A DNA stretch of 64,000 nucleotides, from NCBI GenBank assembly GCA_029582155.1, contig CM055902.1, forward strand, positions 14,334,086 through 14,398,085, in the 5' to 3' direction. The translations under genes and the position numbers were made by a program. Numbering within the stretch: position 1 is the first letter of the stretch; each line of letters opens with the position of its first letter. Positions 4,412 to 63,344 of the stretch are shown here, in pieces. Source of the stretch: Panopea generosa. Its lineage: Eukaryota > Mollusca > Bivalvia > Adapedonta > Hiatellidae. Under the pieces are notes generated by a model. The model did no database searches. It saw only the letters and a list, made by a program, of their open reading frames with translations, and had not been told where the DNA came from.

Positions 4412-4414
4412 ATG
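4412..4414 (+). CDS. Gene 1 coding exon 1: ATG only, followed directly by a splice donor
   Basis: The ATG is immediately followed by GTAAGTG, a near-consensus donor. The first exon therefore carries the 5' leader and just the initiator codon, in phase 0. Gene 3 repeats this layout exactly at 60300, and the next exon in both genes is 67 nt and encodes the signal peptide. This conservation is why I chose this start. Confidence 0.75.
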
Positions 4415-7400
4415 GTAAGTGTTCTTTACTTTAATTACTAAAATGTGTTAAAAAAAAAAGTCATTGGAACCTGGTTATATTCTGCTTGTTATTCACAGTT
4501 GTAGTTTGATTATTCAGATTTATAAACGGTTGCTCTGACATTGAAATATTGAAAGTTTGCTATATGGACAAACACTGTTATATAATACATTAACCGATAT
4601 ATTATGTTTTATATTTTTAACAATTTTAACTATCTAAGAATATAAACGTTCATAGACGTAAATAAGAAATGATATTTACTTTTATATTTGTGAAGGAGAA
4701 TTGATTACAGAAACAGTAGGGAAAAGTACTACTTTTTTCTACTAACAATCTAAACGCGGCAACCCGTGTTTTCACTTTAGCTGTATGTTTGCATTGTAAT
4801 TGTAATTATTACGTGTTTGTGCTGTTGTGGTGGATGTTTCATTTGAATGCTTAGTCTTCCCTTGCACATAAAATGATGAAACTATAACTAAGAACGCATT
4901 TCTTCAAAACCAAAAAGATATTTGATTAAAATAGAAAATATACAAACTATATAAGCATAATTTTCGGTGTATTTGAAGTGTATAATTACATTTGATCTTA
5001 GCATGACGGTTAACCTTTGGTTTAAATGTAAAACGTGAACGTGAAACAATTGCCATGTCTTATTTTTTCATAAGTAGTATGTCCATCTGTCAAAGTTAGT
5101 TATGATTGCATTTAACTGTATTTGACAACAACGCAACATGAATTGTTCACATATTTTTTTTATTATCAGTAACACATTACCATTATCTCTTCTTAAAAAC
5201 ATGAAAATAAAGGACTCTGATATGTATAGTTTATGCAACATAGAAATAGAAACATTTAAACATATTTGTATCGAATATGACGTTTCTAAACAATTAATCT
5301 TGTGTTTGATGAAGCATATTCGCAAAAAATGTATAGGAATTAATTTATATAGAACAAATACTGACATTATGTTCAGTAATAATAAAAATGACAATGTCTT
5401 GGATAAGATAATATTAATTGCAAAGACATTTATTTACACTCAGAAACTAAAACAGTTAAACCTACACTTTACAACTTTAAAAAAACATATTTTAAATATT
5501 TATAATACAGAACGGTATCTTGCAGAAATAAATTGTAAAATACATACTTTTGATATTGTTTGGAATGTTTATCAGACACTTGTATCTTGATATAAATTTG
5601 AAACATTGTACATGTTACTCTTTAAGTTTTAATTTAGACACATATGTTTGAGTTCAAATACATTTATATGTTGTAGACCTTTAATTAAATCAGTCTCCAT
5701 CCCCTCCAAAGAGTGTTTTTATATTTTCTTATTTTTTTTCTATTCTCCAATCAATTATAATATTTAACTGCTCATTATCATGACAAGACATGCAAGAAGA
5801 ATAATAATTTAATGTTAACATACTTCAATAAATAATTACTTTATTTTCAAAAAACAAGTTTACAAAGTCAGATGCGGAATGTTTTATGGCACTTGGATTG
5901 TTTTTTATGTACTTACCTATCTTCAATAAATGAAGTCCGACACCCAATTTAACATGTATTGTTGCATTATAGTTTATACATTTAAACAAGTGCAAAGCAT
6001 TTTGATAACATGACAATGTTGACTACCATCAATGTTTGTTAGACTGGGTGAACACTTATGGACATGTATGTGAAAGTTTGCACTTTTTAAGTTGTATAGT
6101 ATTTGCTCAGGAGTTGGCAGAGCTTTAGCTTATATATTTATAGTTTCAAAAATATATCTATTACAAATGATTAACCTGCCAGATGTTTAATGAAAATTAA
6201 AACTGTTGAGGAAGGTTTCTGTTAGGGCATTTTTACTAATTACGATAAATCGGCCCTTGAGTTTTAAACTACACAAATAAATTATCTGGATTTAGTGGGC
6301 ATTGTTTGTTACCCATTCAAATTTCACAGACAGTGAGCCACTTAATGGATATTAGAAACTTCTAAATGCATATATAATTGTCATGAATTATTTATGTATC
6401 AATTTGTCTGATTTTGTATAACTAAATTGAAATAAAAGTTACAAAAAAACGTTACCATAATCATAATCTAATGGTATAATTGAATGTACGAGGGTGAATA
6501 AAAATACCTGGACTTTCATTACATATTATTACAATTAATATAAATATTAAGATTATATGGCGTAATTATATTGGAAGTAAGCTTTTATTCCTGCAGTTCT
6601 GGCAACGATCAATCTAGAATAAGTTCCATGACAACAGTTTAAGTACAGCGATATAAACGTTAACGATATTGCTATGCAGAAATACACGAACATCTTTCAC
6701 CTATCGTCCTATTTCATGATGCTTTAACAGCTTCAGAACACACCAAGCATGTACCTGTCATGTTGACATATATGTTAAAATAGTTTTCACAGTTCAATGA
6801 TTTACACCAACTTGTGACAAACTTTCGTTCTGAGTCAACTGGTGGTCCTTCTTAATCAGACCCTTCACTGCTGCGGATGTCCTCTACTGGTAAATCCCGC
6901 CCTCTTACTATCTAGTGTACAATGTCCAATAGAACATATAACACATATTTAAAACAATTAAACTATACACAATACCTTGAATAAGTACAATGTAGACACA
7001 TTGCACAACAAACATACGGAGGAAGTGACAAACGAAAAAAAGAAGAAGCCTGCCCGGTCTATCCTATTGTAATGCCCTACATATCATCAACTAATACAAT
7101 ATAACCTATTTGTAATAAAGGCTTACGTTTTACAGGAGCTACTATCTTCTGCCTTGTGGATTTTAATTTGCATGAGCGGTGTTTACAGATATTCGTCAGC
7201 AGGTAGGTTTCGTTTGGCTTATAGAATCATATAGATCTGACTGTGAAACGTGCAAACTTAATTATTAAAGTTTGTGGTTTTGTTCAATTTATACTTAAAC
7301 ATAACCATAAGGTAATAACAGAAAATAACATATAACGACTAAAATATATATATCAAACAATATATCTGGACACAAAACAACACATACATTGTAGAATATA

Positions 7401-10400
7401 TATCAAATCATTGATCACACGATTATATAACAATAAGTATAATTAGCATTTTGTAGAAGGGAACCTGAATAGTTAATCTTAATGCATTTTAAAACATGTG
7501 TGCCTAACATCACTTGTTTCGTTTATATATTATATTGCCTGTTGATACATATAGTAACATAGGCATTAGCATACTACTGCATTTGTAAGGTATTATCCTG
7601 GGGGACGTATTTTTTTATTTATACCGTTTTGATTTTTGACGTGGCGACTGAGAAGAACCAACTTTTAAGTTTCTCGTTGACTGTTTCGCTACAGATCTTT
7701 CAAATGCAGTAAATCCAGTTGTCACTTCTAAGTTTCATGTATAGTACTTCTGATCGATATCAATAGTTTTAATGCTATTCGTTTTAGTGTGTTCTTCGAA
7801 CCTTTGGATTATGTGTCTCCTTGTGTTCAAATGAAATAAAGAGAATTTTATTTAGCGATGGAATGAAAAATTAAACGTTAAATTCTGTTTCTGAAATTAT
7901 TTTTTTTCTAATTATTGACCCTGCTTAAACTGTTTTGGTAAAGACACAAACATCAGCCGAATACAAATAAATATCGTAAATAATATTTCGCACTTCATTT
8001 GCGACGGTCATGAATGTATCAATTATAAATTGTATATTTGATATTTTACATATTAATATATATTGCAGGAGACTCTTGTTAAATTATTTTTTCATCACAT
8101 TTCACCAGTTCATAATTGTATTCATTGGTATCTTTTACCTTACATGCGGCAATAACTTCTCTATGGCAAAATTACATTTTGAACAATTTCTCTGTTATTT
8201 GACAAGGAATCGTTGTAACTGAGTGGTCTAAGAAACTGTTTCAATGTTTCAACATTTCTTACCTTTCAATGTGAAGATTATGTATGAAGCTGTTTAACTT
8301 GTATATAACAATATAAGGCTTAAAAATGTTCCAAATCTATATATTTTTGCATATTTTTACAAAATGGCGATTTTAATGATAAATCCATGAATTATTATAG
8401 CTCTTATTGCATCATGTGATAATGACGGTAAATGTAAAGTAAGTGGTGGTGATGACAATGCAGTATGTTCAACTGCGGATGGGAATGGCGCCTGCGTTTG
8501 TAAAAGTACTCACAAGGATGACGACAGTGGTACATGCGTTCCAAAAGGTTAGTAATATAGTTCTATCACTATGAGAAACCAATATTATAGTTGATCATTT
8601 ATTGACATTTCCCCATAAACTTTATAAGCTATGTAAAGGATGTTGACTCGTCAAAATGAAAGTAATTAGATTTTTTAATTAAGTTAAATCATATTTAATA
8701 TTATCTCAGTTGAAATTGATCGTAAAAAAGATATGTTGCCGTGCTTGTTTTTGCGCTATGTCATTTTAAAGATGATATATTCCTAAACAATCAATAGTGA
8801 AGGGGTATTATATATATATAATATTTTATTCTTTACTTAATTTGATTTTAAAATGGTATTTACTCTCAAAACTTGTTTGACTTTCCTGTGTTAATTAGAA
8901 TATGATTAGTGAAAAAAGAAGTGCAATCACAAAGGTAATAGAGGTATTTCATTGTTTAGATTTTGGACATGTTTACGTTGAATATGCATACGGTACCGCT
9001 CTTTCAGGTTTTATAGCTAAATTTTCACACAGCATCCTGTATAATTGTACTCAAGGATTGGATCAATAAAAATATAATCGTATATGCCTGTACATTTTAC
9101 AACCAGAAAAAAGTATATAAATCAACCCGATGATGGCGTTTGCTAATATTGTATTTAACCGGAAAATCTAAAGCCTAAATATACATTGCACGAGTAAAAT
9201 GCTTACGTTGTTTAAAATGAGTTGATTTTATAACATTAACGGAGAACACTTACATTCCTTGATTTTAAATTGGATAACATATCATGTTTTATCAATTCAT
9301 CAAACATTAAACGGGCTATCAATTCTTTACAAGATAGCACATTATATGTTTATACTATTGAACATCAGAAAAGTGGTAATTATACAATTTTAGAAATGGT
9401 TGTTTTATTCAATAAAAATGTTAAAATAATATGATAAAGACATAGCTGGTGTGTTAATTCATTCACTAAAGGTTGTTGACTAATCTTAAACCGACATCTC
9501 TTGTTATATTGTTTATAATTATAGCTACATAAGTCTGCAAGTAACTTTATTTTGCTACGTCAGTGTTAAACATATGTAAATATATATAATAAATAGCAAT
9601 TTCAATATCAATAAATTATTATTCATCATTTCACATTTCCAGCACAGAATAGAAAAGAAACTCATAAAACAATGTTAATATTTTGATTGTACATGATCAG
9701 TTACAAAACAAGAGATCCTTTCATAATTATTGCTACTTAGCCTTGATTTCGGGTTATGTTTCAACCTATTTTCAACCATCTGATGTTTTAATAAAACTAT
9801 ATACTCTCCAGAACATGGCGATCCTTGTACAGCGAACACAGACTGCAATGGTCAATCTCAAGAGTGCAGTGATGGTTCTTCCAAAGTGTGTACCTGCATT
9901 TCCGGACATTCCTACGATGGCAAAAAATGCGTCGTAGGTAATACGTGTAATTTGTTTTGTCAATATAGCATAAGTTGGTTAAATAGTTTGATTAAATTGA
10001 GCCAGTTCTTGATGAGTAAGATTTACAGGCTTGTACATATATAATTTATTAGTTTTATGAATTACCTAAATAGCTCTCCATTCTTACTGCATGTTTATTT
10101 GTCACCACACCCATTAACAAGATAGAAACTATATACATTGTAACTAAAGTATATACATACGTTTTACACGGAAACCCAAAGGGATGTTTGTTAATTGTTA
10201 TCGATCTACATGTAAATGTTGGTACAATAGTTCTCTACATCATCAGACGAATTTGAAAATAAAGTATATAGTATAAACGGTATACTGTATAACATTTAAT
10301 TTCATTCAGGACACGGTGACCCATGTACAGATGACGCAGACTGTAATGGACTAAATCTAAAGTGTGATACAAGTAAAGATCCTGATGTCTGTGCTTGCAA

Positions 10401-12448
10401 AGATGGATATTCACAGGACGGTGCAAACTGTATAAAAGGTACATCTATTATAACAAGAGAGTCATTATTTAGATGGAAATCAAAGTGTAAATCGTAAACA
10501 TACGTTTTTGCACCATATGAAAACAGGGTTATCGGATCTATATCTTTGTACAACTTTTCTCTACTTTATATCACGAAGTTTGAAATGAAGTATATGTATT
10601 ATACTGTATCTCATTTTATTTCACCCAGGACATGATGATGAATGTAATGCCGACGCAGACTGTACTGGACTAAATCTAAAGTGTGATACAAGTAAAGATC
10701 CTGATGTGTGTGCATGCAAAGATGGATATTCACAGGAAGGTGCAAACTGTATAAAAGGTACATCCGTTATAACAAGAGAGTCATTATTTAGATGGAAATA
10801 AACGTGTAAATTGTAAACATACGTTTTTGCACCATATGAAAACAGGGTTATCGAATCTATATGTTTGTACAACTATTCTCTACATTATATCAAGAAGTTT
10901 AAAATGAAGTATATGTATTATACTGTATCCCATTTTATTTCACCCAGGACATGATGATGAATGTAATGCAGATGAAGACTGTACGGGGCTAAATCTGAAG
11001 TGTGATACAAGTAAAGATCCTGATGTGTGTGCATGCACAGATGGATATTCACAGGACGGTGCAAACTGTATAAAAGGTAATAAGTGTATACTGTTATTCA
11101 TTTGACATAAACCGATAACTTTGAAGTTTTTTTTGCAAAGCCAACATCAAAATATCCAATATTCGTTATAAAAGAAGTTTATCAAAGATTTATAAAAGTT
11201 TATAGAAGTAATATAAAACATAAAAGCACAGAAATATAATACGTAGTTGTACACCGTGAGATACACCTAACAAAATGAGGAAGTGACAGATAAATAAGCT
11301 ATTTTCTAAAGACAACACCAACTTATTCAGTTTTGGTTAGGAATAAAGTTCCTAAATAGTTTTTATATTATAGATAAAAGTATTAATTGGAAGGACAATG
11401 CACAGGCAGTAAATTATATAAGACTTTTATATAATAAGTTCATATGCAACATAGTAATATACGTCTTCAATTGTGCAACACTTCTCATCATGTATTGAAA
11501 GTGAAAGTTCAAACTTATACTTTTTGAAAACAGCTTAAATGATAATCTATTTATTAAGGTCCATTCGGTACAACACCATATTTTATTGTACGCTGATTTG
11601 GATATAGGTTTATCTCACATTTTGACTTTTGATATAATTATGTACATGTTTATATATAAAATTATTTTGTTGAATAATTCTCACTGGCTTCTCATCATCT
11701 TTGATATATTGCAATAATACCTACTGTCCAATCTTCATAAACATGCAGCACGTGACACAATCCCTAATTACTATCTGTATGCTTAATTTCAAATGAAATA
11801 CATGGAACGAAATGAACAAAGTCATATGTTGTTATAAGAATCTTACATGGGTTGAGGCTCGGATTGACAATTCCGTCTCGAGGGATAACTGTTCTAGCGG
11901 GAACGAAGCTCCTGCAAAAACTGTGATCCAAAGAAATGGCATTTCTATCCGAACCAAAAGATCATGAACTATTCCTAGTTTGACCGTTTGAATAATTATT
12001 ATAACTTAATTTTACAACGGTCGCTTTTAAGACGTTTTATTATATGATTTATGTTTATATAATTATACGTAACGTCATCTGGATTGTTTTGATTGTCTGG
12101 TAAAAATGCAGATATCTTTATCCGGTATGCAAGAGTATGTATTCCTATGAATTAATATTGAATCACTGTAATGCCATGAATATGTTTCTCTGTCAGTACC
12201 TTGAACTATATAAAGATTTCTATTTTTGTCTAAATTTATGTTTCTGTAGGCTATAACATTGAAATAGAAAATTGTGATATACAAATCAACGTGAGCAATG
12301 TGAGATTAAAATTATTAGAGCATGTGACCTATGTACCCATAGTGTGTATTTATTAATTTCAGTTCCCGATAATTCTGCTGATGTGACTGGCATGGCAATA
12401 CCTGTTGTGATATTATTGTTGTCCATTGCTTTGTTTGGAAAACTGTGA
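4412..12448 (+). CDS. Gene 1: secreted/anchored protein with five EGF-like repeats, complete (spliced, 8 coding exons)
   Basis: Coding exons: 4412-4414, 7136-7202, 8401-8547, 9812-9937, 10310-10438, 10629-10757, 10948-11076 and 12363-12448, total 816 nt, 271 aa. Every junction has AG/GT and the frame stays open. Residues 1-23 are a signal peptide (core LLSSALWILICMSG). Five 6-cysteine modules follow at about 24-72, 73-114, 115-157, 158-200 and 201-243. The tail, 244-271, has a short polar stretch VPDNSAD and then hydrophobic PVVILLLSIALF ending two residues before the stop. The module pattern C-x5-C-x6..10-C-x7..8-C-x-C-x10..11-C resembles invertebrate EB/EGF-like repeats. A hydrophobic end after small residues is typical of GPI signals; a single-pass membrane helix with almost no cytosolic tail is the alternative. 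Likely cell-surface; ligand unknown. A TATA box lies 78 nt before the ATG. The family is clear; the function is not. Confidence 0.85.
5138..5620 (+). mobile_element. LINE remnant in gene 1 intron 1: C-terminal end of a non-LTR reverse transcriptase
   Basis: An intact 150-codon stretch (5138-5590) contains LLKNMKIKDSDMYSLCNIEI and then ETFKHICIEYDVSKQ. This matches the zinc-knuckle tail (zf-RVT type, C-x2-C...H-x4-C/E) of L1/Tx1-like ORF2 proteins, where typical sequences read like DxCxxCxxxxETIEHLF. The following DKIILIAKTFIYTQK fits the same C-terminal region. The polymerase core is not seen upstream, so it is 5'-truncated. It sits in gene 1's sense orientation. Confidence 0.55.
7136..7202 (+). 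CDS. Gene 1 exon 2: signal peptide
   Basis: 67 nt between TTTTACAG and GTAGGT, encoding 22 residues plus one base (phase 0 to 1). The residues after Met are ELLSSALWILICMSGVYRYS and then SA, a hydrophobic core followed by small residues suited to signal-peptidase cleavage. Its length equals that of the gene 3 signal exon. Confidence 0.85.
8401..8547 (+). CDS. Gene 1 exon 3: EGF/EB-like module 1
   Basis: 147 nt, phase 1-1, between ATTATAG and GTTAGT. It encodes six cysteines with SCDNDGKC at the start, ACVC in the middle and GTCVPK at the end. It is the longest and most acidic of the five modules, with GGDDN and KDDDSG loops. Confidence 0.85.
9812..9937 (+). CDS. Gene 1 exon 4: EGF/EB-like module 2
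   Basis: 126 nt, phase 1-1, between CTCTCCAG and GTAATA. It encodes EHGDPCTANTDCNG at the start, VCTC in the middle and GKKCVV at the end. The GHGDPC/EHGDPC start marks it as the closest relative of exons 5-7. A longer ORF over this exon (9683-9937) is in the wrong frame and is not real. Confidence 0.85.
   Translation, partial: NMAILVQRTQTAMVNLKSAVMVLPKCVPAFPDIPTMAKNAS
10310..10438 (+). CDS. Gene 1 exon 5: EGF/EB-like module 3 (tandem copy a)
   Basis: 129 nt, phase 1-1. Six cysteines: GDPCTDDADCNGLNLKC, then DVCACKDGYS, then GANCIK. It is the first of three near-identical exons at 319-bp spacing. Confidence 0.88.
10629..10757 (+). CDS. Gene 1 exon 6: EGF/EB-like module 4 (tandem copy b)
   Basis: 129 nt, phase 1-1, starting exactly 319 bp after exon 5. 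It begins GHDDECNADADCTG. The rest differs from exon 5 mainly by a D-to-E change in SQEGANC. The flanking introns are 190 nt each and alike in sequence. Confidence 0.88.
10948..11076 (+). CDS. Gene 1 exon 7: EGF/EB-like module 5 (tandem copy c)
   Basis: 129 nt, phase 1-1, 319 bp after exon 6 and closest to it (GHDDECNADEDCTG). It has ACTDG where exons 5 and 6 have ACKDG. The following intron (11077-12362) does not continue the repeat. Confidence 0.88.
11840..11965 (+). repeat. Unclassified dispersed repeat in gene 1 intron 7
   Basis: It shares the block order CGGAT..AATTCCGTC, GAAACGAAGCTC/GAAACGAGGCTC and TATC.GAACC.AAA with 23200-23310. It is GC-richer than its surroundings. No coding content or family was recognised. 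Confidence 0.4.
12363..12448 (+). CDS. Gene 1 exon 8: hydrophobic anchor tail and stop
   Basis: 86 nt after TTAATTTCAG, encoding VPDNSADVTGMAIPVVILLL and then SIALFGKL, TGA at 12446. A small polar stretch followed by a terminal hydrophobic run is the layout of a GPI-attachment signal. It is homologous to the gene 2 (49931) and gene M (31775-31863) tail exons. Confidence 0.85.
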
Positions 12449-31774: not shown

Positions 31775-31863
31775 TTAAAACATTTGCATTAAGATGTTTG
31801 TCAGGGCTGCCATCATCAGTGTTACTGCAGCCATCGCTGTCTTGCCAGCAGATTTACTAGGAA
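31775..31863 (-). CDS. Gene M terminal exon: anchor tail and stop
   Basis: 89 nt, the same length as the gene 2 tail exon, after acceptor ACTTCAG. Stop TAA at 31775-31777. The C-terminus is moderately hydrophobic and follows S/A/G residues, compatible with GPI attachment. A minus-strand AATAAA lies at 31759-31764, only 11 nt past the stop. Confidence 0.75.
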
Positions 31864-33649: not shown

Positions 33650-34795
33650 CTAAAATAAAGAAAAGCATGATGTACGAATTAAACATAAGGCAATATATTA
33701 GATAATATATATCCAACAAAAGATGCATCATCTTAGAACACGGCCATTGCAACAGGACAGAGTTAATAAAATAAATACATAGATTACTCATAACTAGTAC
33801 AATAAATGTACAGAGAATAAGTAGCAAAATTGTAAATACCGAAGGAACATTTAAACACAACTCAAACTTTATTACCAAATATTTTAATTTCTATTAATAT
33901 TTCGAATACTAAAATGCATAAAATCACAAATATCACTTTCTGAACACGAATCACTGATTGAGAGATATCATCCATACTTCAATATCGTCACGGGCGTTCA
34001 CGTAAGCTTTTAAAGATTCAAAAGCATTTCTGTACCTAGTATGAACACCTCGGAGGACATCCACTTATTCACCTCTGAGTAATCCTAAAACCAGTTTGAT
34101 ATTGTTCTAAATTTAATCTTTATGTGATAGATAACTTTTTTATATGTCAATTTTTGTTAGCAAATAGACAGATACATGTACGAAGTACGACGCGAATGTG
34201 CAACTTGGTGACTGTTGAAAAGACATGACTGAGTGAGTGTATTTTGACCAGTGTTAGGGTGTAGTATTCGTATAGTATCCATTGAACGTAATCGACAGCT
34301 TTGTACATATCGTAACAAATGAAATCATCAACTTATACAAAAAGCTTTTCCATTTCCGTTCGTCTAGTAGTATATTTATAATTTAACAACATCAATGCAT
34401 TACATAAAATATGGTATGACTATCAATACATAATAGTTAATATAAAAGTGGTATTGTAGTTGTGTAATTAAAATTTATGTTATTAAAATATGTGTTGCGT
34501 CTCATATTTACATCGTTATCTCAAAATATGCCAGCTGTAATAACAACTGCTTCAGATTATTATACATTTCATTCTCGATAAAAGGTATGCATCGATATGG
34601 TATATATATTATATTCGTACATATCTGGAAATTTGATCTATTCTGAGTCAAGCGTAATGCGCGATGTCTACGCACAGTATCATATATAACAACCAGACAC
34701 GAAGCATTTGATGTGCATAAGCTTAACACTGGTTTTGCCAAATTACAGTATTGTGTTTAAGTTAATGGAATTACATAATCGAGGAAAGTAAATAA
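33650..34795. other. Gap between gene M exons and the large duplication
   Basis: If gene M and gene 2 are divergent, their 5' ends should lie here or in the next 2.8 kb. I could not find a 67-nt signal exon, an ATG-GTAAG start or a convincing paired TATA box on either strand. ORFs at 34508-34741 and 33525-33878 are not supported beyond the gene M exon. Confidence 0.4.
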
Positions 34796-37582: not shown

Positions 37583-37696
37583 ATATTGATGAATGTGCCA
37601 CGAAACCTTGTAAGAATAGTGGCTCCTGTAATAATGGAGTCAACGCATTCACGTGTACCTGTGCTGCAGGCTGGACAGGGGCAACTTGTGAAACAG
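37583..37696 (+). CDS. Gene 2 exon A1: calcium-binding EGF
   Basis: 114 nt, phase 1-1, acceptor CTTATTTTAG, donor GTAATAC. DIDECATKPCKNSGSC, then CNNGVNAFTCTC, then GWTGATCET. Six cysteines. C-x-N-x4-F-x-C is the cbEGF hydroxylation motif. It reads NSG where B1 and C1 read NGG. Confidence 0.85.
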
Positions 37697-43600: not shown

Positions 43601-46600
43601 CAAATGCTGCGTGTGGCAATACGGTTGGGTCAATCACATGTACCTGTAACTCCGGATTTGTTGGAGATTGCAAGTCTTGTACAGGTTAATGTTGGTGAAA
43701 TATTTAAATAATTGAACATATTTAAGTTTTTTACATTCATGATTTAAATTTCGATCTTTTCTTTCATAAAATATTTTAGGTAGTGAATTAATATTCAAGC
43801 AATGGTGTGTTATCCGAATATATTCATTGTCGCTAGTCTTTAAAATATAATGCATACAATGTGGATATTTATTTTGTTGTGAATAGTTTACAAACCAAAT
43901 AACAGTTTTAAATTAATAAAACTATTGACAATATACAAAACCAAGCGAAAAATATTCTCAATTATAAATGAATGCAAATACAGTTTTAGAATAAAAATAT
44001 ACCGTTAATGTAAGATTAAAATCATTATTAAATCGATTTTAACATTATATAGAAATTGTATATTAATAAGTCATTGTTTAGTATGCAACACCATTGTATC
44101 GTTAATACAGGCATTCCTCATACATCGTTCTTCCTTGTCGACTTATATTTATATTAGTATCGTTAAATCGATCAACATTTATTTCCACACTCTTATACAT
44201 GTATATTGATATGTATATCTACATGAACTAACGTATTTGATTTAGTTATAGATCTACAAACGTACATAAAAATATATTCTAGTTTTAATAAAAAAATAAA
44301 CAACAAAACAGTATTGGAATAATAACAAGTACAGAAACATTCATTTAAATTCATATTATATACTTAAGGAGCTTAAATGAGATTTCCTATCTACTAGTAT
44401 ACAACAAAGTGTCACGGATCAATATTAAATGTATATTTAATTAGGTTTTTTATTTCAAAAATATATTTTTTATTTAAAACTTTATACGCCACTGATGTAA
44501 ATTCTGATTTATGTAAATAACGGTAAAATAAATTATGACTTAAAGCAAAAACATGTGACATAAAAAGTATACAGTTTAAATACTATACTGAAATATAGTC
44601 TATTAGTACACATTATTGTGTTTGTCATGGATATTAAGTAAGCTTCACATTTTTTTAACTCGGCGCACTCACAGTAGTCTGGTCTGAACATTTATGTCTG
44701 GTTATTCACAAATAATTACTTCAGTATATATATATATATATATAACCCAATTCCACTTGTTTATATCCTCAAATTGACATAAACATCAATTGCAGTTGCA
44801 GTTTCAATTCAAACCATTTGCGTCAGCTCATGAAGTAATGGAAATGATGGTTTATTAGAAATGGCATTCCATCTCATTCTTTCATTCCAAGTGGTTAAAT
44901 GTTATACAGAAGGTACCGAATCCAGAGCACAAATGTGTTCTCGACGAAATCGGTTAGTTTGTCAGGCAATAGTAAATGGTTACTGTACAGTTTTTTATGG
45001 TAATGTATTGTTACGTTCAGTGTGACCTAGTAATCCCCGCCACTCTCACGTCTTTACGTGACTTACTAGGCATTGACACTCTCATGAGTATAATAAAAGA
45101 TAATAATATATTAAACTTTAAAGTTTTAATGCACACAGTACCATTTTATTTACATCATCTGACAATGCAATACAGATATTTACCATAATCCATTAAAATA
45201 TCGTTGTCCAAATATTATTTGATTATTTTGCATTACTTTTTATTCAATCATTCAATTTAGTTCAATAATTAACTTTTAGTTTTAGATGTTATTTACCTTG
45301 ATGCAGATGTAGCTACCTAACTGTTAAAGTGATTCTAATCAGGTACATGTAACAGAATGCAATCTATAGTTTATGCCCTTTGATATAAATAAAAAAACGC
45401 TAGCTACACCAAAGTGACCCTTAGGGCCTGTTTTATTAGCATTCAAAAGATAGTTTAGGCTTTTTTAGATCTTAAATATAAACTGGAACTATAACTCCGT
45501 TAATGTTTGCCAATTTTGATATATCATCATTTGTGAGGATTGTCATATGAGTAATACACTTTACAGCAGGTCGTTAACACAACCATCGATCAATTAAGGA
45601 ATTAGGAGCCTTTCTCATTTAATTTAGGAATGATTCTCAATCATTTAATTCCTAGTGAACCATATTGTTCTACAATTAAACAGGAAAATGGAACGCCTGA
45701 AACTATAAAGTTATCAACCTCAAAGCGCGGAAAAATGTAGCAAATAAGGATTGAAAGTACTTTTATTGTCATTTAAAGTGCTTTGATAGATGTAATGAAA
45801 TAAAAACGTTATTAGTATCTTGGAAAAAAAATCTATTCATAATTACATTTATTAAATTGTACTTCAGGGCAGCATTCTGTAGTAAATCGAATAAGTTGCT
45901 ATAGTGTTGCAGCTGTTTTTGTTATGAATATTTCATATATTTATGCATATATCTAAGTGCCTATGCAGCACAAAACACACCCGTATACAAACCTATATGC
46001 AATCAGCCATACGTGCTAATGTCGCCTTCCTATTAATAGTTACAACACTGGTGATAAAGCTATACGTATAAATATGTCTTTTTGATGGTGTCATAACGTA
46101 TCGTTTTCTTATTTTAGATATTGATGAATGTGCAACAAAACCTTGTAAGAATGGTGGCTCCTGTAATAATGGTGTCAACGCATTCACGTGTACCTGTGCT
46201 GCAGGCTGGACAGGGGCAACTTGTGAAACAGGTAATACTGTTTTGTTCTAGGTGACGAAATACAATTCTATTACTGTGATTTAATGCACGATGTCTCAAA
46301 TTATGTATATATATTTTTTTCAAAATACACAAAGAGAAATGTATTTTAATGAATTCGGCATGTTTTGTACATGTATATATTCCATCAAATAAAGAGACGT
46401 TAAAATATGCGTGTAGATGGCTACGCTATTAATTTAGCTAATCACAATTTCTGAAATGGCCTTGAATAGCTACGTTACTCCTTTCTTTTCATGCATATGA
46501 TTATTAAAAAGAATATACATCACGACAATGTGTGTCAAATATTCATAATGATTCAATGACCATCATTACTTCTTGATTTTTTTTTGTGCAAAGCTATTTC

Positions 46601-49600
46601 CGTTAAGTAACGAATAGGAACAATGAATGAACATAGGAGTGCCATGTTTTCTCTGATTTGTGTAATATTAGCTCTGACAAAGACTCTGTCACAGTTCGCC
46701 AACTTATTCCAAAGAATCTTTGTCTTTTTTATTTAGTTACGTTTATATATATACACACGAATCTAAAGTGAACCATCTTTGGTTTGTTTCGTAATCTTGG
46801 TGATTAAATGAACATACCTTCCAACAGTATACATAATACTTTATAATAATAATCAGTAACATTCAAAAGTATATAGCTATAGGTATTTCCGTATGCTCCC
46901 GTGAAAGAGCCTTGTTTTAAGTTGCATACATCCCCTTTCAAGTACGTTTAAATCTAACATATGTGATCTACTAAAAGCTCAATAAAACTTAAGAAACCTG
47001 TCCAGTTGTTGCAAACAGTTGTGTGGCGACGACATTTATTGTTTACCTATGTACCAATGTGAACATTAACCGCTGTATTCAACCACCATGTCAACCAATA
47101 TTTTATCTATCGACTTTCCAACAAGTCTAGTTGCTCAGAGTGCTTAAATGAATGGTTTATACTCGAAATTAGTCTCAGTTAAGTAAATGCCATAGTTTAG
47201 TGTGGTATAAATCATATTATTAGATCTTCCATCTCTATGCCAAATATAATGACATGAAAGTTACCCAGTGGAACGTTCTGCAACAGTATGAACTGTAGCA
47301 TGTAACACATTTCAGCAATTGTTCAACTAGTTCTATGTTTACTCATGATCTTGTAAAACATGTTTTAACGCACGACGTCGCCAACATATAAGTAGATGCC
47401 TTCCCTGCTAATATGTCTTTGGGGATGATGCTCCCCCATATTAAAATACAGTTGATAAGTATTTCCTCACTTCAAGAAACTTAAATTATGCAATACATCA
47501 TAATTTTAGCATATCTCATCCCTCTACACCAATCACACCTATATGTGTATCAATGGACACTACACAATACCTTGTTTATGAGACGATACCAAATACGTTA
47601 TCAATGCTGGAATATTTACATAATTGGTGACCTGGTTTTGATAGGAACACCTACTGTTGTCTTTTCTTACGAGGTGGTTTGTTTGAAGACATAACAAGAG
47701 AACGATTTATATATGTGTGTGTCATTAAATATATACAAATCGTTAACACATTCCGAGGATGTTTTTATAGTTTCAAATGTGATTTTTATAATGGATTGAT
47801 TACAACATTCTCAAATTGAAATAGACGTTGATATATATCTACTCATGATTAATCTCGCACAATAAATTAACTAAATGAATGTTAACAAGATATAGTCATT
47901 ATGTGACGTTGTGAATGAAGTCTTCAAATCATATCTAAAAATAAATTTATACAAAAAAAAAATAAGTGAAACGAAATATGCACAACAAAATGTGTAATCA
48001 AGTATTAAATATGATTTCGAAGTCCTCAATGTATTATGCATCATGTTAACAATTTAATACATAATCAACATAATTGTTTACAAAGTGCATTAATGACAAA
48101 AAACGGATTAGATACATATAAACAATTAGATACATATACACAATTAGATATATTTTACTTACTTATACAACTAAGTGGCGTAAAGTTGTGCACTTTATTA
48201 TATACAACTACACATAAAATCAATAACAGAGTTACATATGCATGTTGCAGCAAATCAACACTCAGTGTCAATACCGATCTTTAAAACTACAGATTTATCT
48301 ATAGAACATGAATTCCAGACCAAACAACTCCAAAATATATGTACATGTCTACCCGTATGTATAAATATTTAGAATACACACAAAATTGTTTAGCTGTGCA
48401 CACAAATATCAACACAATTACGTTGGTGATCTACCCACTAATATCACACTGACTTAAATGTGATAAACTACTCAGCCAATGTGTTTTAAAAAGAATTTGT
48501 ATGCAAAATGAGAAATGGTTTTCGGAAAAAAAACACTTTGTCATGGGACTGTAACCATGATCGCCGGAGTCATTATCCATAGACGTATCCACTGCGCAAT
48601 GCAGGCATATGCTAAAATTAGTCGCATAAATCTAACTTAAAGATTGAACTTGAACTGATTACTCTGGTTTCGTTGATAATGTCCGGACATTTCCAAACGT
48701 TACCGGTATAACTGAGATTATATATTTTAAATCATTACATTGATTGTTGGATCAAGTCTTATTCAAATATCGGCGATAAAAGCGAGTATAAATAGATGTT
48801 TTGGCAAAATATATCAATATTTACAACATATATAATCAAGACAGTTACAGTTAATGCAAAATATTACAATTATACGAGTTTTTTTAATTAAATGGTAACA
48901 ACTACTGGTTATGACGCTTTAGATATATCCATTCATTTTTTTCTAATAAAATCAATACTTTCTCTGTTTGCTGTATATGTCTTAGATCAATATCTTTACC
49001 TAGATGTTTTTTTTCTCTCTTTTTTTTTGCTATATCGTGTCAAATAAGTTAAAATAATATGAGAACACAAAAATATAATGCAACACATAGGCAAAAATTA
49101 AACGCCTTTATATAACATGACCATTAAAGTCAGCTAAGCGTTTAATGTTAATACATTCGAAAGATACAACATGATAAAATGAAAATGATCGAGATATATT
49201 TACTGATCGATATACAAATTGTTTGTTTAAGCTACTGTCGGTGTCTGCATTGGTACCCCTCTTGCATGTCCTGACACAGTAGATAATGGTGTATGTTCCG
49301 GTACTGCCTGTGTCTGCAAGGAAGGTTACCAAAAAGAGGAAAATAACTGCGTTTTCGGTAAATATAATTGTTAAGGGTTTACGTTATATAAATTCAATAC
49401 ACTTTAACTGTGAACCAATAACAGGCCTATCATGGAATAAGTAGTACTATATGTGTTGTTGTGTGTGTTATGTTGTTTTCTATTGTATTATAATTTATAA
49501 ACTTATATTATTGAATCACATTTTACAATGTCTTAATATACATTGAACTAACTGTTTTTATCTACCACATTGGTTTATGGTGGAGCACGTGATCCAGTGG

Positions 49601-50019
49601 TACAGCATCTGATCCAAGATCGGGGATCGTTTAGTTCTCTGCTACTGCTATGTGTGTTGACTTTGAGCAATACACTTTATCTTTATATTCTTATTACTGG
49701 TTCCACTGAGGAAGACTAAGTCTTCTACCTTGATTTGACAAAGTGTTAAAAACGCTGCTTCATAATAGATGTAAAATATATATGTTTTAGACCTTTGTTT
49801 GTGCATGTGTTGTCCATTATAATACAATAACCATACAAAGAATTAGTCTTTATTGTACATTAAATAATAGTTTACATTATTGGTATTTCTTTATTATGTA
49901 TTGATATTCTATGATTACAATTCATTTCAGTTCCTGATAATGCTGCTGATAAGACAGCAACTGTTGGAGTAGCACTGATGATGACAGTTCTGACAAACAT
50001 CATAATGCGTTTGTGTTGA
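37583..50019 (+). CDS. Gene 2: multi-EGF anchored protein, 5' end not found (8 exons seen)
   Basis: Exons: A1 37583-37696, A2 38632-38754, A3 39821-39931, B1 43244-43357, B2 43562-43684, C1 46118-46231, E 49232-49357 and tail 49931-50019; 914 nt, 304 residues. All junctions are phase 1. Order of domains: cbEGF, cbEGF, EGF, cbEGF, cbEGF, cbEGF, divergent EGF, hydrophobic tail. A1, B1 and C1 keep DIDEC and CNNGVNAFTC, a full calcium-binding and hydroxylation consensus, so the protein is extracellular and probably Ca-dependent. The tail VPDNAADKTATVGVALMMTV is like those of genes 1 and M. A start and signal exon must lie upstream but were not identified. Transcript continuity across copies A-C is inferred. 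Confidence 0.72.
38632..38754 (+). CDS. Gene 2 exon A2: cbEGF-like with a seventh cysteine
   Basis: 123 nt, phase 1-1. DIEECIAGTDGC, then HANAAC, CDNTVGSITCTC and GFVGDCKSCT. The usual aromatic of the hydroxylation motif is Ile, the first acidic pair is IEE rather than IDE, and GDCKSC adds one cysteine to the normal six. The matching gene 3 exon (63219) has GDGTTC at that place. Confidence 0.82.
39821..39931 (+). CDS. Gene 2 exon A3: EGF
   Basis: 111 nt, phase 1-1, acceptor TCTGTTACAG, donor GTCAGTG. AFNCNSGSDNCQNGGTC, then ACSC, then GWTGDDCGK; six cysteines, no calcium-binding signature. Homologue of the gene M exon at 32358. It has no counterpart in copy B, where the surrounding 0.6 kb is deleted. 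Confidence 0.82.
43244..43357 (+). CDS. Gene 2 exon B1: calcium-binding EGF
   Basis: 114 nt, phase 1-1, almost identical to A1. The acceptor reads TTATATAAG rather than TTATTTTAG, a weaker pyrimidine tract with A before AG, so inclusion could be reduced. Confidence 0.8.
43562..43684 (+). CDS. Gene 2 exon B2: cbEGF-like with a seventh cysteine
   Basis: 123 nt, phase 1-1. It differs from A2 by two residues (IDEC for IEEC, CGNT for CDNT). The extra cysteine in GDCKSC is kept in both copies. Confidence 0.82.
44725..46952 (+). repeat. Large tandem duplication, copy C (diverged, internally deleted)
   Basis: Begins at a third TA tract and aligns with copies A and B with more differences. It lacks about 1.1 kb (equivalent to about 35.09-36.15 kb) and about 0.33 kb (equivalent to about 36.23-36.56 kb). 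Similarity ends near 46952, before the second cbEGF exon, so only C1 is present. Confidence 0.85.
46118..46231 (+). CDS. Gene 2 exon C1: calcium-binding EGF
   Basis: 114 nt, phase 1-1, acceptor TTATTTTAG, donor GTAATAC. The protein is the same as B1 although the DNA and flanks of copy C have diverged, which hints at constraint on the exon. Confidence 0.82.
46953..49231. other. Gene 2 intron between exons C1 and E (unduplicated part)
   Basis: No exon or clear repeat seen on either strand. A stretch at about 48650-48935 is similar to 30560-30840 in the same orientation. Confidence 0.4.
49232..49357 (+). CDS. Gene 2 exon E: divergent EGF/EB-like module
   Basis: 126 nt, phase 1-1, acceptor TTTGTTTAAG, donor GTAAATA. 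ATVGVCIGTPLACPD, then GVCSGTACVCKEGY, then NNCVF; six cysteines. It resembles gene 1 modules more than the cbEGF exons before it. It precedes the tail exon as the last gene 1 module does. Confidence 0.8.
49573..49760 (+). mobile_element. SINE family II copy in the last intron of gene 2
   Basis: A tRNA-like head (GATCCAGTGGTACAGCATC as A box region, a degraded B box near GGATCGTTTAGTTCTC) is followed by a GTTGACTTTGAGCAATACAC core and TACTGGTTCCACTGAGGAAG. The core recurs at 54.6 and 55.6 kb. Confidence 0.5.
49931..50019 (+). CDS. Gene 2 terminal exon: anchor tail and stop
   Basis: 89 nt after TTCATTTCAG; VPDNAADKTATVGVALMMTV and then LTNIIMRLC, TGA at 50017. Homologous to the tails of gene 1 (VPDNSAD) and gene M (VPSKSAG). 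Less hydrophobic than the gene 1 tail. No AATAAA follows closely; ATTAAA at 50301 is a weak candidate signal. Confidence 0.82.
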
Positions 50020-50637: not shown

Positions 50638-50648
50638 AAATAGGTATA

Positions 50649-60195: not shown

Positions 60196-60230
60196 CTAGT
60201 TCAAACTTGATTTAAGCGTTGCCTCCTCTG

Positions 60231-60238
60231 TATATAAG
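60231..60238 (+). promoter_or_regulatory. TATA box of gene 3
   Basis: TATATAAG, 69 nt before the ATG at 60300; predicted start near 60261. The spacing matches gene 1 (78 nt). Confidence 0.6.
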
Positions 60239-60299
60239 GTGAATTTTAGGGAACATTGAAACATTATAGAAACAAGGACGAATAAACACGTAATCGAAA

Positions 60300-60302
60300 A
60301 TG
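60300..60302 (+). CDS. Gene 3 coding exon 1: ATG only
   Basis: ATG followed immediately by GTAAGAA. Same arrangement as gene 1 at 4412, with a TATA box at similar distance and a 67-nt second exon. Confidence 0.75.
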
Positions 60303-63300
60303 GTAAGAAATGTTTAAATGTTTCTTTCTCCGAGCAAATAATTATTTTGTTTACAAGCAAGGTGTGAACACATTTGAGCATGCATGGCACAGAATGTCTA
60401 TAAATATTATAATAATTGTCCTTTGTATATAAGAGATTTTTTATGAAAACATTTAATTTGAACTTTGAATGTTAAAATTGTATATCACATTACCTAACCT
60501 TCAAGGTATTGGTATAGTGTATTTACTTTGTAACATAAACATGCACATTAATTCCTATTTATTTTCTAAACTAGTGTTAAAATGTTAAACTAAATTGGTA
60601 TAATTGCGAATTAATCATCATTACATACGACCAATTAGAGATCGGTAAACTGTGATTATTAGGTTTTGGCACGTGGTGTATTCAATCTTTTTAATTATTG
60701 ATATTCATTTCAGGAACAGATCGTTTATAAAGTGGGTTTGTGGGTTTTACTTCTTGGCTCAATGTTCTCAATATCATCAGGTATGCGATTACTTTCTTAA
60801 CACGTATTTGATTGTTTGAAATAAACTTGGATATTACATCGTTTGTGTTAATTTTGGACAAACACAAGTTATTTACAAAAATATGAAAGTAGACTACAGG
60901 AGATTATAATTTCCATTTGGTGGAAAATTGTTGCTAATACAATTTGTGCAATAGATGTCAATGTATAGTTCTTGTATGTCGTTAAGCATTACTTTCAACA
61001 ATTTTTAGTCATATCGCGACGGTGTCTACATGAGACAGTCTTAGCCACATTGAAGTATCATGGCGCAAACACTTATGTTATACTGACGCCATGCCGACCA
61101 GACCCAAAACTATCCTCTAAATCTAACGCCAAATGTGGAAGCTTCAAGTATTTGATATAACCTGGCCGGAGATCGAACCCACGACTTTCCGCGTGCAAGG
61201 CGGGCGATCTACGTGCGATAGGCATTGTCCGACTTGAACATTAATATATAACAAGATTGTTTTATAGTTCATATATTATTTTAATAGAAATCAGTGTAAA
61301 CATCACCCCCTTACCTATCTCAGTGTGTATCTCATATTATATTGTTTGATATAAAATATTGCTAAATCCTATGTTAGGAAGAGTGAGAAGTGTTACATGT
61401 TTCTCTCATGCACAGACTCAATACAGCCGAGTCTGCGACCTTCTGGATTATTTTCTGGATTATTTTAGGACGTTTTCTTGTGTCTTTCGTAGCCGGTTGG
61501 TCTAAGGTGCCGTCTCAATATCTCATAGTTAAGGTCATTGTTTAGAATTCCGTCGCTCTAAAAACTTTATGTGAAAAAGTTTGCCAATTACATGTACTTG
61601 CGGAAGAACGGTGATTCTACTCAAATTCATTCAGAGTGGCATTAAACCCCATTCAAAAAAAGAAGGACGCGTTCTGCTTTTCCGAGGGATGTGACTTTTT
61701 GCTGCAGATGAGTAAAGCAAAAGCTGGCATAGCATACACTACCATAAAATATCACTTGCGTTAAAATAAGTAACTTTTATAGGATTTTAACAAATAGATG
61801 ACGGTATTTATGGGCTTTTGATGACTTCTTTTTTAAAACAATTCTTATGGTGTCACTGTACTGTCATCAAAAGAAAATAAGCTGGTCAACCAACCATTTA
61901 TTGTGCATTTAAATGCACAGATTCCTACTGTGACAAAAAATAGATTCTATGTGTAGTTTTATCATGGAAATCTTAGACCTGATATTTTATATAGAATAAA
62001 AAACAAAACCCAACTGTGTAGTGATTCTTATATTGCTTATTATACCAGATAATGTATTTAAATGTACGATCTTACTAAATCGAGTTTAATTTACAGCTGC
62101 TGTTGATACGGTGTGTACTGTAGGTGGTACCGAATGTGAAGCTAACGAAGTTTGTACAGATTTAACATGTGCTTGTGAACCTGGTTATACTGGAGATAGT
62201 ACAACACCGTGTGCAGGTCAGTACCATTATCAGAACTATATTATTTTCCATTTCACCAATATATCAAAAATATTACCTAGGCGATACAAATCATGTTAAT
62301 GTTTTCCCTACAGTCTGGTTATAATAATGTTGTATATATTCACATAGTTCAATTTTACTTGATATTTGCATATTTATCAACACAGTTTCAATAACAAACA
62401 TCTCGATTTTTTTGCCAATAAGGGAAAAATCGACTTATAATGTTAATATGATATTGAAAATAAAAAAATAAAAGGCGAATTGAATTTATTATATAGTTAC
62501 TGGATAATAATGAAAAGAGTGAAAAACAAATGCATCGACCATGTAAATATACTTATATACAAAGGTGGAGGTAAATCAAATAACAACCCCAGCAGTTTTC
62601 GATATTGTATGACACGACGGATTATTTCACAAAATTGTCGAGAAATCACGTGTCAGATGTTGAGTACTAAATCATTGGAGGTTGTAATATTTGATATTAC
62701 ATGTATTAATAATATGACAGATCATAACTCTGTCCCTATCGCTTTGGGATATATGCTCTCTGTTTCCCTCCCCTTTAGTTTCTCTTCCCTCTCCCTAGTC
62801 TCTCTTTTTCACTTTTATAATATATCTTCTCTTTACTTCTTTTGTAAAACCCTAAATATCAACTATTTGTAACGTTTTGTTATTGTGTCTTGTCACTGTT
62901 TCCTATGTATTGTTATTAAACTGTATCCTATATCCATAATATCCTTTAATGGAGGAAATAAATATATTTAATTGAGTTTAATTTAGTTGAACATTCATAT
63001 TCTGTTATATTTTTTTTATTTCCTTCACAAATTTTGTTTTCATTGTTATTAACCCTTTATGGTTGAAATTATTTATTGTTGGCTAAAGTAGCGGTTTCGC
63101 TACTGACCGTTCCATGGTGGAATCTCATTTGATAATTTTACTACGTGCTTTGATGTCCTTACAATAGACGTTGTCAGGGCAACAATAAGCAATATAAGCA
63201 GTTATCTTATTTTATTAGATGCTGACGAATGTGCTAATACTGCTGACAACAACTGTGACACAAATGCCGCATGTACAAATACGGCAGGGTCGTTTACATG

Positions 63301-63344
63301 TGCCTGTAATTCTGGATACGCTGGAGACGGGACGACTTGTACAG
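60300..63344 (+). CDS. Gene 3: EGF-repeat secreted protein, 5' part (runs off the window)
   Basis: Exons seen: 60300-60302 (ATG only), 60714-60780 (signal peptide), 62097-62216 (EGF) and 63219-63344 (cbEGF), with all junctions in frame. The first 23 residues are a signal peptide (core VGLWVLLLGSMFSISS). The next 40 residues are a 6-cysteine EGF-like module without a calcium signature. The next 42 are a cbEGF with DADEC and CTNTAGSFTC. The final donor GTTAGTA shows the gene continues past 64000, where more EGF exons and a tail exon like those of genes 1 and 2 are expected. Extracellular; function unknown. Introns 2 and 3 carry SINE and LINE pieces. Confidence 0.8.
60714..60780 (+). CDS. Gene 3 exon 2: signal peptide
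   Basis: 67 nt, phase 0 to 1, between TTTCAG and GTATGC. EQIVYKVGLWVLLLGSMFSI and then SS. Same length and phase as gene 1 exon 2. Confidence 0.85.
61010..61245 (-). mobile_element. SINE in gene 3 intron 2, minus orientation
   Basis: On the minus strand, ATCGCCCGCCTTGCACGCGG precedes a B box GTGGGTTCGATCTCC. A body follows with TTTGGGTCTGGTCGGCATGG. It is GC-richer than the surrounding intron. Confidence 0.5.
61480..61670 (+). mobile_element. SINE family III copy in gene 3 intron 2
   Basis: A box TAGCCGGTTGGTCTAAGG, degraded B box GTTTAGAATTCC, then the family body GGAAGAACGGTGATTCTACT and an end TTAAACCCCATTC followed by A7. Confidence 0.6.
62097..62216 (+). CDS. Gene 3 exon 3: EGF-like module
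   Basis: 120 nt, phase 1-1, acceptor TTTACAG, donor GTCAGTA. AAVDTVCTVGGTEC, then ANEVC, then TCACEPGYTGD and TPCA; six cysteines. Confidence 0.82.
62500..62965 (+). mobile_element. Probable LINE remnant in gene 3 intron 3
   Basis: YKGGGKSNNNPSSFR at about 62558-62602 resembles the reverse-transcriptase motif (I.KGG...NDPSSYRGI) of CR1/Jockey-like LINEs. The rest of the 130-codon ORF does not follow the family, so it is deleted or decayed. The block ends near GGAGGAAATAAATA, a plausible LINE 3' end. Confidence 0.4.
63219..63344 (+). CDS. Gene 3 exon 4: calcium-binding EGF
   Basis: 126 nt, phase 1-1, acceptor TTTATTAG, donor GTTAGTA. DADECANTADNNC, then CTNTAGSFTCAC, then GYAGDGTTCT. Six cysteines with full C-x-N-x4-F-x-C. 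Orthologous in layout to gene 2 exons A2 and B2, but without their extra cysteine. Confidence 0.85.

Follow-up and report, generated by a model that had tools for sequence, protein, structure and literature searches.

Exon shuffling of phase-1 modules is a textbook process, usually viewed as an ancient outcome, and several described systems resemble parts of the gene cluster considered here. CD55/DAF are GPI-anchored CCP proteins; the one Sushi gene of the cluster that has been fully read likewise comprises four Sushi modules and a GPI-like tail, but it also contains an EB module, and its signal exon is a homologue of the one in the EB-only genes. Pfs25/Pvs28-type proteins of Plasmodium carry a GPI anchor and are, like the proteins described below, small EGF arrays. 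They gave the best matches to the predicted fold of an EB module (pLDDT 84, pTM 0.52), although at E 1.3 these are not significant, and there is no evidence of kinship with the cluster proteins. Proteins with EB modules (PF01683) are a further point of comparison, since gene 1 of the cluster scores above the EB cut-off, but gene 1 encodes a small GPI-like protein with signal and tail exons of its own; solved structures gave just two weak matches to it (E 0.02 and 0.048). The modules of gene 2 match solved EGF repeats of Notch1, DLL1 and NELL (best 1.5e-36), whereas the cluster proteins are short, end in a GPI-like tail exon and mix EGF with EB-like modules. None of the four proteins (gene 2 without its 5' end, gene 3 without its 3' end) had a Pfam match at E<=0.1 to the LNR, heterodimerisation and ankyrin domains of Notch or to the DSL domain of Delta, and the Delta/Jagged EGF model PF21700 reached 26.2 bits in gene 2, where the cut-off is 27. 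Biomphalaria has gene clusters for proteins of the cell surface, GRC and PTC2, whose products are single-pass transmembrane and hyperdiverse, according to the accessible part of the source (PMC7494358). Clustering of such genes is common to both; set against that part of the account, the present cluster differs in its GPI-like tails and mostly known module families. A literature search of open-licence papers found no paper naming this family.

The C9 cluster and its gene plan

The window, that is, the whole stretch of 64,000 nucleotides analysed, lies at 14.334-14.398 Mb on chromosome C9 in an animal genome of 1.47 Gb. A preliminary description had recognised four genes here (1, M, 2 and 3), which proves too narrow: the window is enclosed by a cluster that spans 12.7-15.1 Mb, with some 35 predicted tail exons, candidates included, across ~2.4 Mb. 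The four genes likely belong to a large family, clustered on C9, that encodes modular and probably GPI-anchored proteins of the cell surface. In genes 1 and 3 the plan opens with a TATA box, an exon consisting of the ATG only and a 67-nt signal exon (phase 0 to 1); symmetrical phase 1-1 exons follow, each with one cysteine-rich module, and the last element is a phase-1 tail exon that encodes a short hydrophobic C-terminus. Gene 1 is complete, with a predicted 271 amino acids in eight exons:

4334..4341, plus strand: TATA box (TATATAAA), read in the sequence, 78 nt 5' of the ATG
4412..4414, plus strand: coding exon 1, ATG only, then GTAAGT (donor score 9.9)
7136..7202, plus strand: signal exon, 67 nt, phase 0 to 1 (ELLSSALWILICMSGVYRYSSA); paralogue homologues have the same exon edges
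8401..8547, plus strand: module 1, EB-like; by eye and from paralogues, missed by the scan
9812..9937, plus strand: module 2, EB-type; scan and paralogues
10310..10438, plus strand: module 3, EB, within a 319-bp tandem repeat; scan and Pfam
10629..10757, plus strand: module 4, EB; scan and Pfam
10948..11076, plus strand: module 5, EB; scan, Pfam and paralogues
12363..12448, plus strand: tail exon, VPDNSAD, GPI-signal-like (VPDNSADVTGMAIPVVILLLSIALFGKL, stop); phase-1 acceptor, tail query

A divergent gene 5' of gene 1 (ATG/GT at 3547, minus strand) was examined and dropped. Gene 3 extends past the window, with a candidate tail at C9:14400783 that gave no DNA-level alignment with any of the eight other tails compared:

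60231..60238, plus strand: TATA box (TATATAAG), read in the sequence, 69 nt 5' of the ATG
60300..60302, plus strand: coding exon 1, ATG only (donor score 8.5)
60714..60780, plus strand: signal exon, 67 nt (EQIVYKVGLWVLLLGSMFSISS); scan and conserved paralogues
62097..62216, plus strand: module 1, EB/EGF-like; scan and Pfam
63219..63344, plus strand: module 2, calcium-binding-type EGF; scan and Pfam

Across the window 16 phase 1-1 cysteine modules were counted. When 1-1 exons with five or more cysteines and fair splice scores were scanned for, 12 of the 16 were recovered, together with one antisense false match; the four that the scan missed (8401, 33539 on the minus strand, 43244 and 49232) each have a weaker site and were identified by eye. 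The modules noted in the preliminary description are real, as they occupy 13 bins of 250 bp in the window compared with 0-2 per random window (15 first-order Markov windows). Gene 1, which had been taken for an EGF protein, is not one in the usual sense: Pfam EB (PF01683) was matched in three stretches at 1.9e-12 (47.5 bits vs a cut-off of 24.3), whereas EGF-type families appeared only below cut-off (cEGF, 22.6 vs 26.6). EGF and EGF_CA (PF00008, PF07645) are above cut-off in gene 2, at 98.2 and 98.5 bits, and cut-offs are also exceeded in gene M (PF00008, 50.6 bits) and gene 3 (PF07645, 41.7 bits). No Rfam match was found at the gathering threshold. Searches of prokaryote genome contigs with the gene 1 protein, and of viral contigs with the first three modules of gene 2, gave 15 and 5 pattern matches respectively, none of which was confirmed; absence of such relatives fits the expectation for animal genes.

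The extent of the cluster was defined with queries from its ends. Tail-exon queries gave 33 cluster matches, nine of them weak, to which scans contribute two further candidates. For the gene 1 tail, 9/11 matches lie on C9 (12.73-15.10 Mb) and 2/11 on C3 (10/11 at E<0.05); all 19 matches to the gene 2 tail (11 at E<0.05) and all five to a Sushi-type tail (each at E<0.05) are on C9. Matches to the signal-exon queries are likewise confined to C9 (13/13, with 8/13 at E<0.05, and 5/5, with 3/5 at E<0.05). Splice models, which were built from home-made scoring matrices and comparison among paralogues, agree over gene 1 and seven C9 paralogues, where 35/36 acceptors and 27/28 donors are in place (30/31 and 23/24 in the seven without gene 1). 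Some cluster members may be decaying, because two EB exons of paralogues have in-frame stops.

Related ends on different middles

The ends of these genes had been described as constant. At the 5' side, the claim that genes 1 and 3 share a 67-nt signal exon stands in so far as both exons exist, at 7136-7202 and 60714-60780; stricter thresholds left no other signal-like exon in the window. Random windows hold 0-2 each, so the count alone proves nothing, and the two were accepted because of their position and conserved paralogues. They have length, phase and a preceding ATG-only exon in common, but no homology is detectable (494/5000 shuffles reach their score; DNA identity 0.37, the random level), and alignment of the promoters of genes 1 and 3 was not above shuffles. 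The ends are therefore several related sets and not one constant pair. Gene-3-type signal exons were found upstream of gene-2-type genes or tails, and homologues of the gene 1 signal exon also begin the Sushi-domain genes of the cluster. DNA identity of signal exons is 0.886 among EB genes (21 pairs), 0.863 among Sushi genes (6) and 0.835 between EB and Sushi genes (28), compared with a random best-of-11 mean of 0.30. In the 14.6-Mb gene, the one Sushi gene that the Pfam test covers, Sushi (PF00084) was matched in four stretches (1.9e-41, 140.7 bits vs a cut-off of 20.7); the other Sushi genes were assigned by similarity or by eye.

At the 3' side, the tail exons VPDNSAD, VPSKSAG and VPDNAAD are all present with phase-1 acceptors, and in shuffling tests the score of tail 1 against tail 2 was reached by 0/5000 shuffles and that against tail M by 34/5000. 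Homologues of the gene 1 tail exon also close two genes on C3 whose six-cysteine modules are unrelated. In one of these, C3a, the tail exon sits within a ~1-kb block, 67-73% identical to C9, which starts at 5983-5985 in comparison with 5/8 C9 genes and at 6056-6072 with the other three; its edge falls within the last intron and reaches no module. For one further C3 locus, the sequence examined stops just past a Thr/Pro-rich stalk exon. The cassette idea of the preliminary description thus gains ground, as homologous signal exons precede EB and Sushi ectodomains and a homologous tail block follows EB modules on C9 but modules of the unrelated six-Cys type on C3. In the cluster, the middles that lie between related ends are of EB, EGF or Sushi type, and module number has been altered by tandem duplication of exon-plus-intron units. 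Because modules and tail share phase 1, intronic recombination could add, remove or swap them with the frame intact, and the cluster would have arisen by such intron-mediated exon shuffling together with unequal crossing-over.

An ordinary tandem family is a possible, though less probable, explanation: a single ancestral gene of mosaic build (signal, Sushi, EGF, EB, tail) would have lost different modules in different lineages, with no exchange of ends. An EB module does adjoin the tail in the fully read Sushi gene, and likewise in genes 2 and 3; the EB, EGF and Sushi types of C9 are interleaved within one region, and differential loss from such an ancestor would account, with no swapping, for a large part of what is seen on C9. 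It fares less well on C3, where genes carry the gene-1-type tail block with its intronic edge, no EB module was found in the two loci, and their own module type was matched on C3 only (22/22, E<=0.01). Exchange is also suggested on C9 itself. The genes at 12.71 and 13.93 Mb, one pair among seven compared, have an identity of 0.93-0.98 at and around the tail and of 0.69-0.93 at and around three other exons, and their tail end looks exchanged. Conservation of the signal exon among gene-1 paralogues does not clearly exceed that of the modules (mean amino acid identity 0.76 vs 0.69-0.78; tail, 0.85). Gene conversion homogenising both ends was considered because the signal and tail exons show fewer synonymous differences (0.117 and 0.166) than the modules do (0.26-0.36); for the signal exon it is not claimed, as its flanking introns are no more alike than module introns in four more distant pairs.

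Duplication and divergence

Tandem growth is best seen in gene 2, for which relaxed scans gave only weak signal-exon candidates, none convincing:

34799..46962, plus strand: internal duplications of gene 2; self-comparison
37583..37696, plus strand: module A, EGF; scan and Pfam
38632..38754, plus strand: module B, calcium-binding-type EGF; scan and Pfam
39821..39931, plus strand: module C, EGF; scan and Pfam
43244..43357, plus strand: module A copy 2, weaker acceptor; by eye, missed by the scan
43562..43684, plus strand: module B copy 2; scan
46118..46231, plus strand: module A copy 3; scan
49232..49357, plus strand: membrane-proximal EB-like module; close paralogue relatives, missed by the scan
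49931..50019, plus strand: tail exon, VPDNAAD (VPDNAADKTATVGVALMMTVLTNIIMRLC, stop); phase-1 acceptor, tail query

Judged by alignment, gene M is an inverted paralogue of gene 2 on the minus strand; no homologue of its candidate signal exon was found at E<=0.01 in the loci searched:

33876..33939, minus strand: candidate 64-nt signal exon (phase 0 to 1) with a weak donor
33539..33649, minus strand: EGF module A; by eye, missed by the scan
32358..32462, minus strand: EGF module C; scan
31775..31863, minus strand: tail exon, VPSKSAG, 29 amino acids and stop; phase-1 acceptor, tail query

The duplicated segments 34799-39731 and 40431-44658 of gene 2 show 98.0 and 99.1% identity over aligned intron bases, gaps excluded, and a third block (45085-46962) shows ~91%. 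Part of the copy number, chiefly these ~98% identical blocks, might represent uncollapsed haplotypes or misassembly, since copies 1 and 2 differ at ~1-2% of aligned intron bases, a difference that alleles of a heterozygous animal could show. As an explanation this seems rather unlikely: copy 3 differs by ~9%, gene-1-type paralogues differ by up to ~30% in flanking introns, and genes M and 2 are ~71% identical and in opposite orientation, so that none of these can be haplotypes. Nor do we favour hypervariable pathogen receptors under diversifying selection, like the snail resistance clusters, a reading that we hold to be unlikely. Clustered surface-protein genes with a variable number of modules are in keeping with it, as is the analogy with Biomphalaria GRC/PTC2, so far as the accessible part of the source extends (PMC7494358), but dN/dS in three modules of gene-1 paralogues is 0.61, 0.30 and 0.26, none above 1, and the modules thus give no sign of an arms race.

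Probable anchoring and possible role

For the modular, clustered family favoured here, the protein would be secreted and its tail exchanged for a GPI anchor, and the ectodomain may act in surface recognition or adhesion, perhaps in an immune or gamete-related setting. In this animal, the C9 region is a candidate locus for surface recognition. Related end exons flank different module families inside one gene cluster, and the tail block with its intronic edge occurs on a second chromosome too; exon shuffling thereby becomes testable among close species and individuals. It is a good deal more speculative, and in our view improbable, that the cluster is a working combinatorial locus through which every individual acquires a particular repertoire of GPI-anchored recognition proteins. 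The reusable ends would then be the promoter with its signal exon and the anchor exon, symmetrical EB, EGF and Sushi exons would be traded between genes through intronic recombination, and possibly also through exon skipping or splicing across neighbouring genes, and the targets recognised might be self, mate or microbe.

With respect to the N-terminal signal of GPI-anchored proteins, the 67-nt exons of genes 1 and 3, the two genes concerned, are hydrophobic. The cluster tails look GPI-like on the basis of their residues: a rule that combines small omega residues, a spacer, a hydrophobic end and no cytosolic tail was passed by 13/15 tails (genes 1, 2, M and 3 included; EB14.48 and SU12.74 fail) vs 22/903 control ORF ends, the rule being home-made and unvalidated and the random ORF-end control one that cannot tell GPI ends from transmembrane ones. 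It is very unlikely that these are signalling receptors whose tail is simply a single-pass transmembrane end, for although the tails finish in a hydrophobic stretch, the chain stops at it or a few residues past it with no cytosolic domain, and small-residue triplets lie at a GPI-like distance in 13/15 tails.

Module genes in and beyond the window

The window (GC content approximately 31%) holds 16 cysteine modules: five in gene 1, two in gene M, seven in gene 2 and two in gene 3. Scanning with generic, home-written splice matrices for phase 1-1 exons that carry five or more cysteines recovered 12 of these together with one antisense false match, the remaining four being read by eye; 13 bins of 250 bp were occupied (false match counted), against 0–2 in each of the 15 first-order Markov windows that served as the random control for the scans. 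The preliminary description of four EGF-repeat genes sharing such modules is therefore right as to the modules, and EGF families exceed the Pfam profile cut-off in genes 2, M and 3, but gene 1 matches EB instead (PF01683; 47.5 bits, cut-off 24.3). Among solved structures, gene 2 matches repeats of Notch1, DLL1 and NELL. Two tandem arrays resembling satellites, with repeat units of 53 bp and 75 bp, lie at 50672–52011 and 55944–57601.

Gene 1 is complete on the plus strand and encodes 271 amino acids, the hydrophobic tail forming residues 244–271, whilst gene 3 runs past the window end into a further EGF module (C9:14398428–14398553, C9 being the chromosome of the window). The end exons of gene 1, and two further exons of gene 3, are as follows:

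4412–4414, plus strand: gene 1 ATG-only exon
7136–7202, plus strand: gene 1 signal exon, 67 nt
12363–12448, plus strand: gene 1 tail exon, five modules lying between signal exon and tail
C9:14399882–14399986: gene 3 EB-like module, outside the window
C9:14400707–14400783: gene 3 candidate tail exon

The candidate tail of gene 3 is proposed from its form, because DNA comparison with eight other tails gave no alignment. In both genes the ATG is cut directly by an intron and preceded by a TATA box, at 78 nt in gene 1 and 69 nt in gene 3. One other ATG/GT site in the window has a donor score of at least 8 (3547, minus strand); it was rejected as a gene start after a search for its continuation found none. 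A strict signal-exon scan of the window returned only the exons of genes 1 and 3; random windows also yield 0–2, so the case for both exons is made by their position and paralogues.

Gene M (minus) and gene 2 (plus) are collinear inverted paralogues, with approximately 69–76% identity across EGF modules A and C, the tail and the 3' flank, non-coding DNA included. Gene 2 appears to have been enlarged through internal duplications, in which aligned intron bases agree at 98–99% between copies 1 and 2 and at about 91% for copy 3; the near-identical pair may be an assembly effect. Scans of the window gave no convincing signal exon for gene 2, and the candidate for gene M is a 64-nt exon with a weak donor.

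End exons shared across ectodomain classes

The gene 1 signal exon recurs on C9 at 12854754 (+), 14607456 (-), 14779246 (-) and 12738931 (+), each with Sushi exons downstream, and a fifth site (13737295) has Sushi matches just downstream. The 14.6-Mb gene was read fully as signal exon, four Sushi modules (Pfam), EB and a tail beginning DPDNSAVATSL; the 14.78-Mb gene combines two Sushi modules with an EB-like one and a tail. The 12.739-Mb gene also has a tail, together with a Sushi fragment and an EB-like module that were read by eye, and the 12.855-Mb gene has one Sushi module, with no tail within the stretch examined. Signal-exon identity between EB and Sushi genes is 0.835 (28 pairs), compared with 0.886 (21 pairs) inside the EB class and 0.863 (six pairs) inside the Sushi class; random 67-mers, best of 11, give a mean of 0.30 and a 99th percentile of 0.43.

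A 67-nt signal exon common to genes 1 and 3 had been proposed. Both exons have this length, yet their identity (0.33–0.39 for gene 3 against the gene 1 class) lies within the random range, so signal exons fall into at least two classes. These may be distantly akin, as two further exons of the gene 3 class (14055571 and 14080962) show identities of 0.45 and 0.49 with the gene 1 exon. Exons of the gene 3 class are found upstream of gene-2-type genes as well: a 95% identical exon precedes gene N (minus; modules A, C, A and EB-like, tail at 14406754), and 57% identical exons precede the gene-2-type tails at 14059779, where one EB-like module was read in between, and 14088456. Of the cassette design first suggested, related ends flanking EB, Sushi and EGF middles are thus retained, but the signal ends are not constant. 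The signal-exon donor is GTAGGT in the seven EB-type genes checked; GCAAGT follows the signal exon in two Sushi-type genes (C9:14607521, minus; C9:12738931, plus), which looks like a GC-AG intron.

Cluster extent and possible traces of exchange

Tail-exon queries were run at E<=10 against the genome (G000; 1.474 Gb, 39 contigs), in which the window was located at C9:14334086–14398085. The gene 1 tail gave 11 matches, nine on C9 (one with E >0.05) and two on chromosome C3; all 19 gene 2 tail matches (eight with E >0.05) and all five Sushi-type tail matches (none with E >0.05) were on C9. With the candidates of gene 3 and 12743468, the 33 C9 matches make 35 tail exons over 12.7–15.1 Mb, nine of the matches being weak (E >0.05), and the cluster is larger than the four genes originally described. 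Signal queries matched C9 exclusively: 13 of 13 for gene 1 (five with E >0.05) and five of five for gene 3. Two of the latter have E >5, and both are exons of 67 nt whose splice sites are good. For gene 1 together with seven paralogues, 35/36 acceptors and 27/28 donors are in place (30/31 and 23/24 without gene 1), counted at five exon positions with GT or GC donors, two or three lengths permitted for modules, and the starts of two signal exons, matched from residue 3 onwards, set by hand. In-frame TGA codons in two paralogue EB exons (C9:12717330 and C9:12850014) point to decay in some members.

The gene 1 tail also ends two C3 genes (82% and 68% identity). Their six-cysteine modules have no Pfam match, and we take them to be reminiscent of PLAC or ShK domains; all 22 relatives of one such module at E<=0.01 lie on C3. 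Homology between one of the two genes, C3a, and C9 is confined to a block of about 1 kb, whose upstream edge (5983–5985 against five of eight C9 genes, 6056–6072 against three) sits in the last intron, approximately 460–550 nt before the tail exon; the block begins 332 nt downstream of the last EB exon at C9 12.71 Mb and 585 nt downstream of the last module on C3a. For the other gene, C3b, the edge falls at 6670–6687 against seven of eight C9 genes and at 6844 against one, about 500 nt before the tail exon. Such intronic edges are what intronic recombination would leave. On C9, the 12.71/13.93-Mb pair has identities of 0.97 ahead of the tail exon, 0.98 within it and 0.93 behind it, as against 0.69–0.85 in the flanks of the three other exons compared, a pattern as after local exchange at the tail. 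In a relative of the C3 genes (L042, C3:20799601–20805100), one exon encodes a mucin-like stalk, rich in Thr and Pro and several hundred residues long.

Probable GPI anchoring, selection, and EB and EGF matches elsewhere

A simple GPI rule, home-made and unvalidated, passed 13 of 15 tails (failures: EB14.48 and SU12.74) and 22 of 903 ORF ends taken from the window as a control, a control that cannot tell GPI from transmembrane ends. Among gene-1 paralogues, with seven to eight sequences for each exon and sums over pairs that are not independent, dN/dS comes to 0.61, 0.30 and 0.26 at three module positions, 0.47 in the tail and 0.99 in the short signal exon, with mean amino-acid identities of 0.69, 0.74 and 0.78, 0.85, and 0.76, respectively; the tail thus varies least, and the signal exon is no more constant than the modules. 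The modules of this sample show no excess of amino-acid change by dN/dS, and this argues against an arms race in sequence.

At the level of sequence, the architecture, the clustering and the homology of ends across ectodomain classes are established. The cluster would have grown via tandem duplication and intronic recombination, both made tolerable by phase symmetry, with tails that probably carry GPI anchoring and proteins that may serve surface recognition or adhesion; a possible immune role is suggested by likeness to snail clusters (PMC7494358). The component parts are already known, and a search of open-licence papers found none naming such a family; EB, EGF and Sushi genes using related end exons in one cluster are, as far as these searches show, new.

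Elsewhere, a long series of EB-like modules with weak gene 1 ectodomain matches (E 0.04–0.9) at C14:49.72–49.87 Mb may amount to a second EB array, on a chromosome other than C9, and EGF-domain matches form a further dense group at C14:18.78–18.94 Mb. At C7:53.149–53.179 Mb, periodic EGF matches of equal score lie within open frames of great length (as much as 2463 aa) and perhaps represent a giant gene or array of EGF repeats that is poor in introns.
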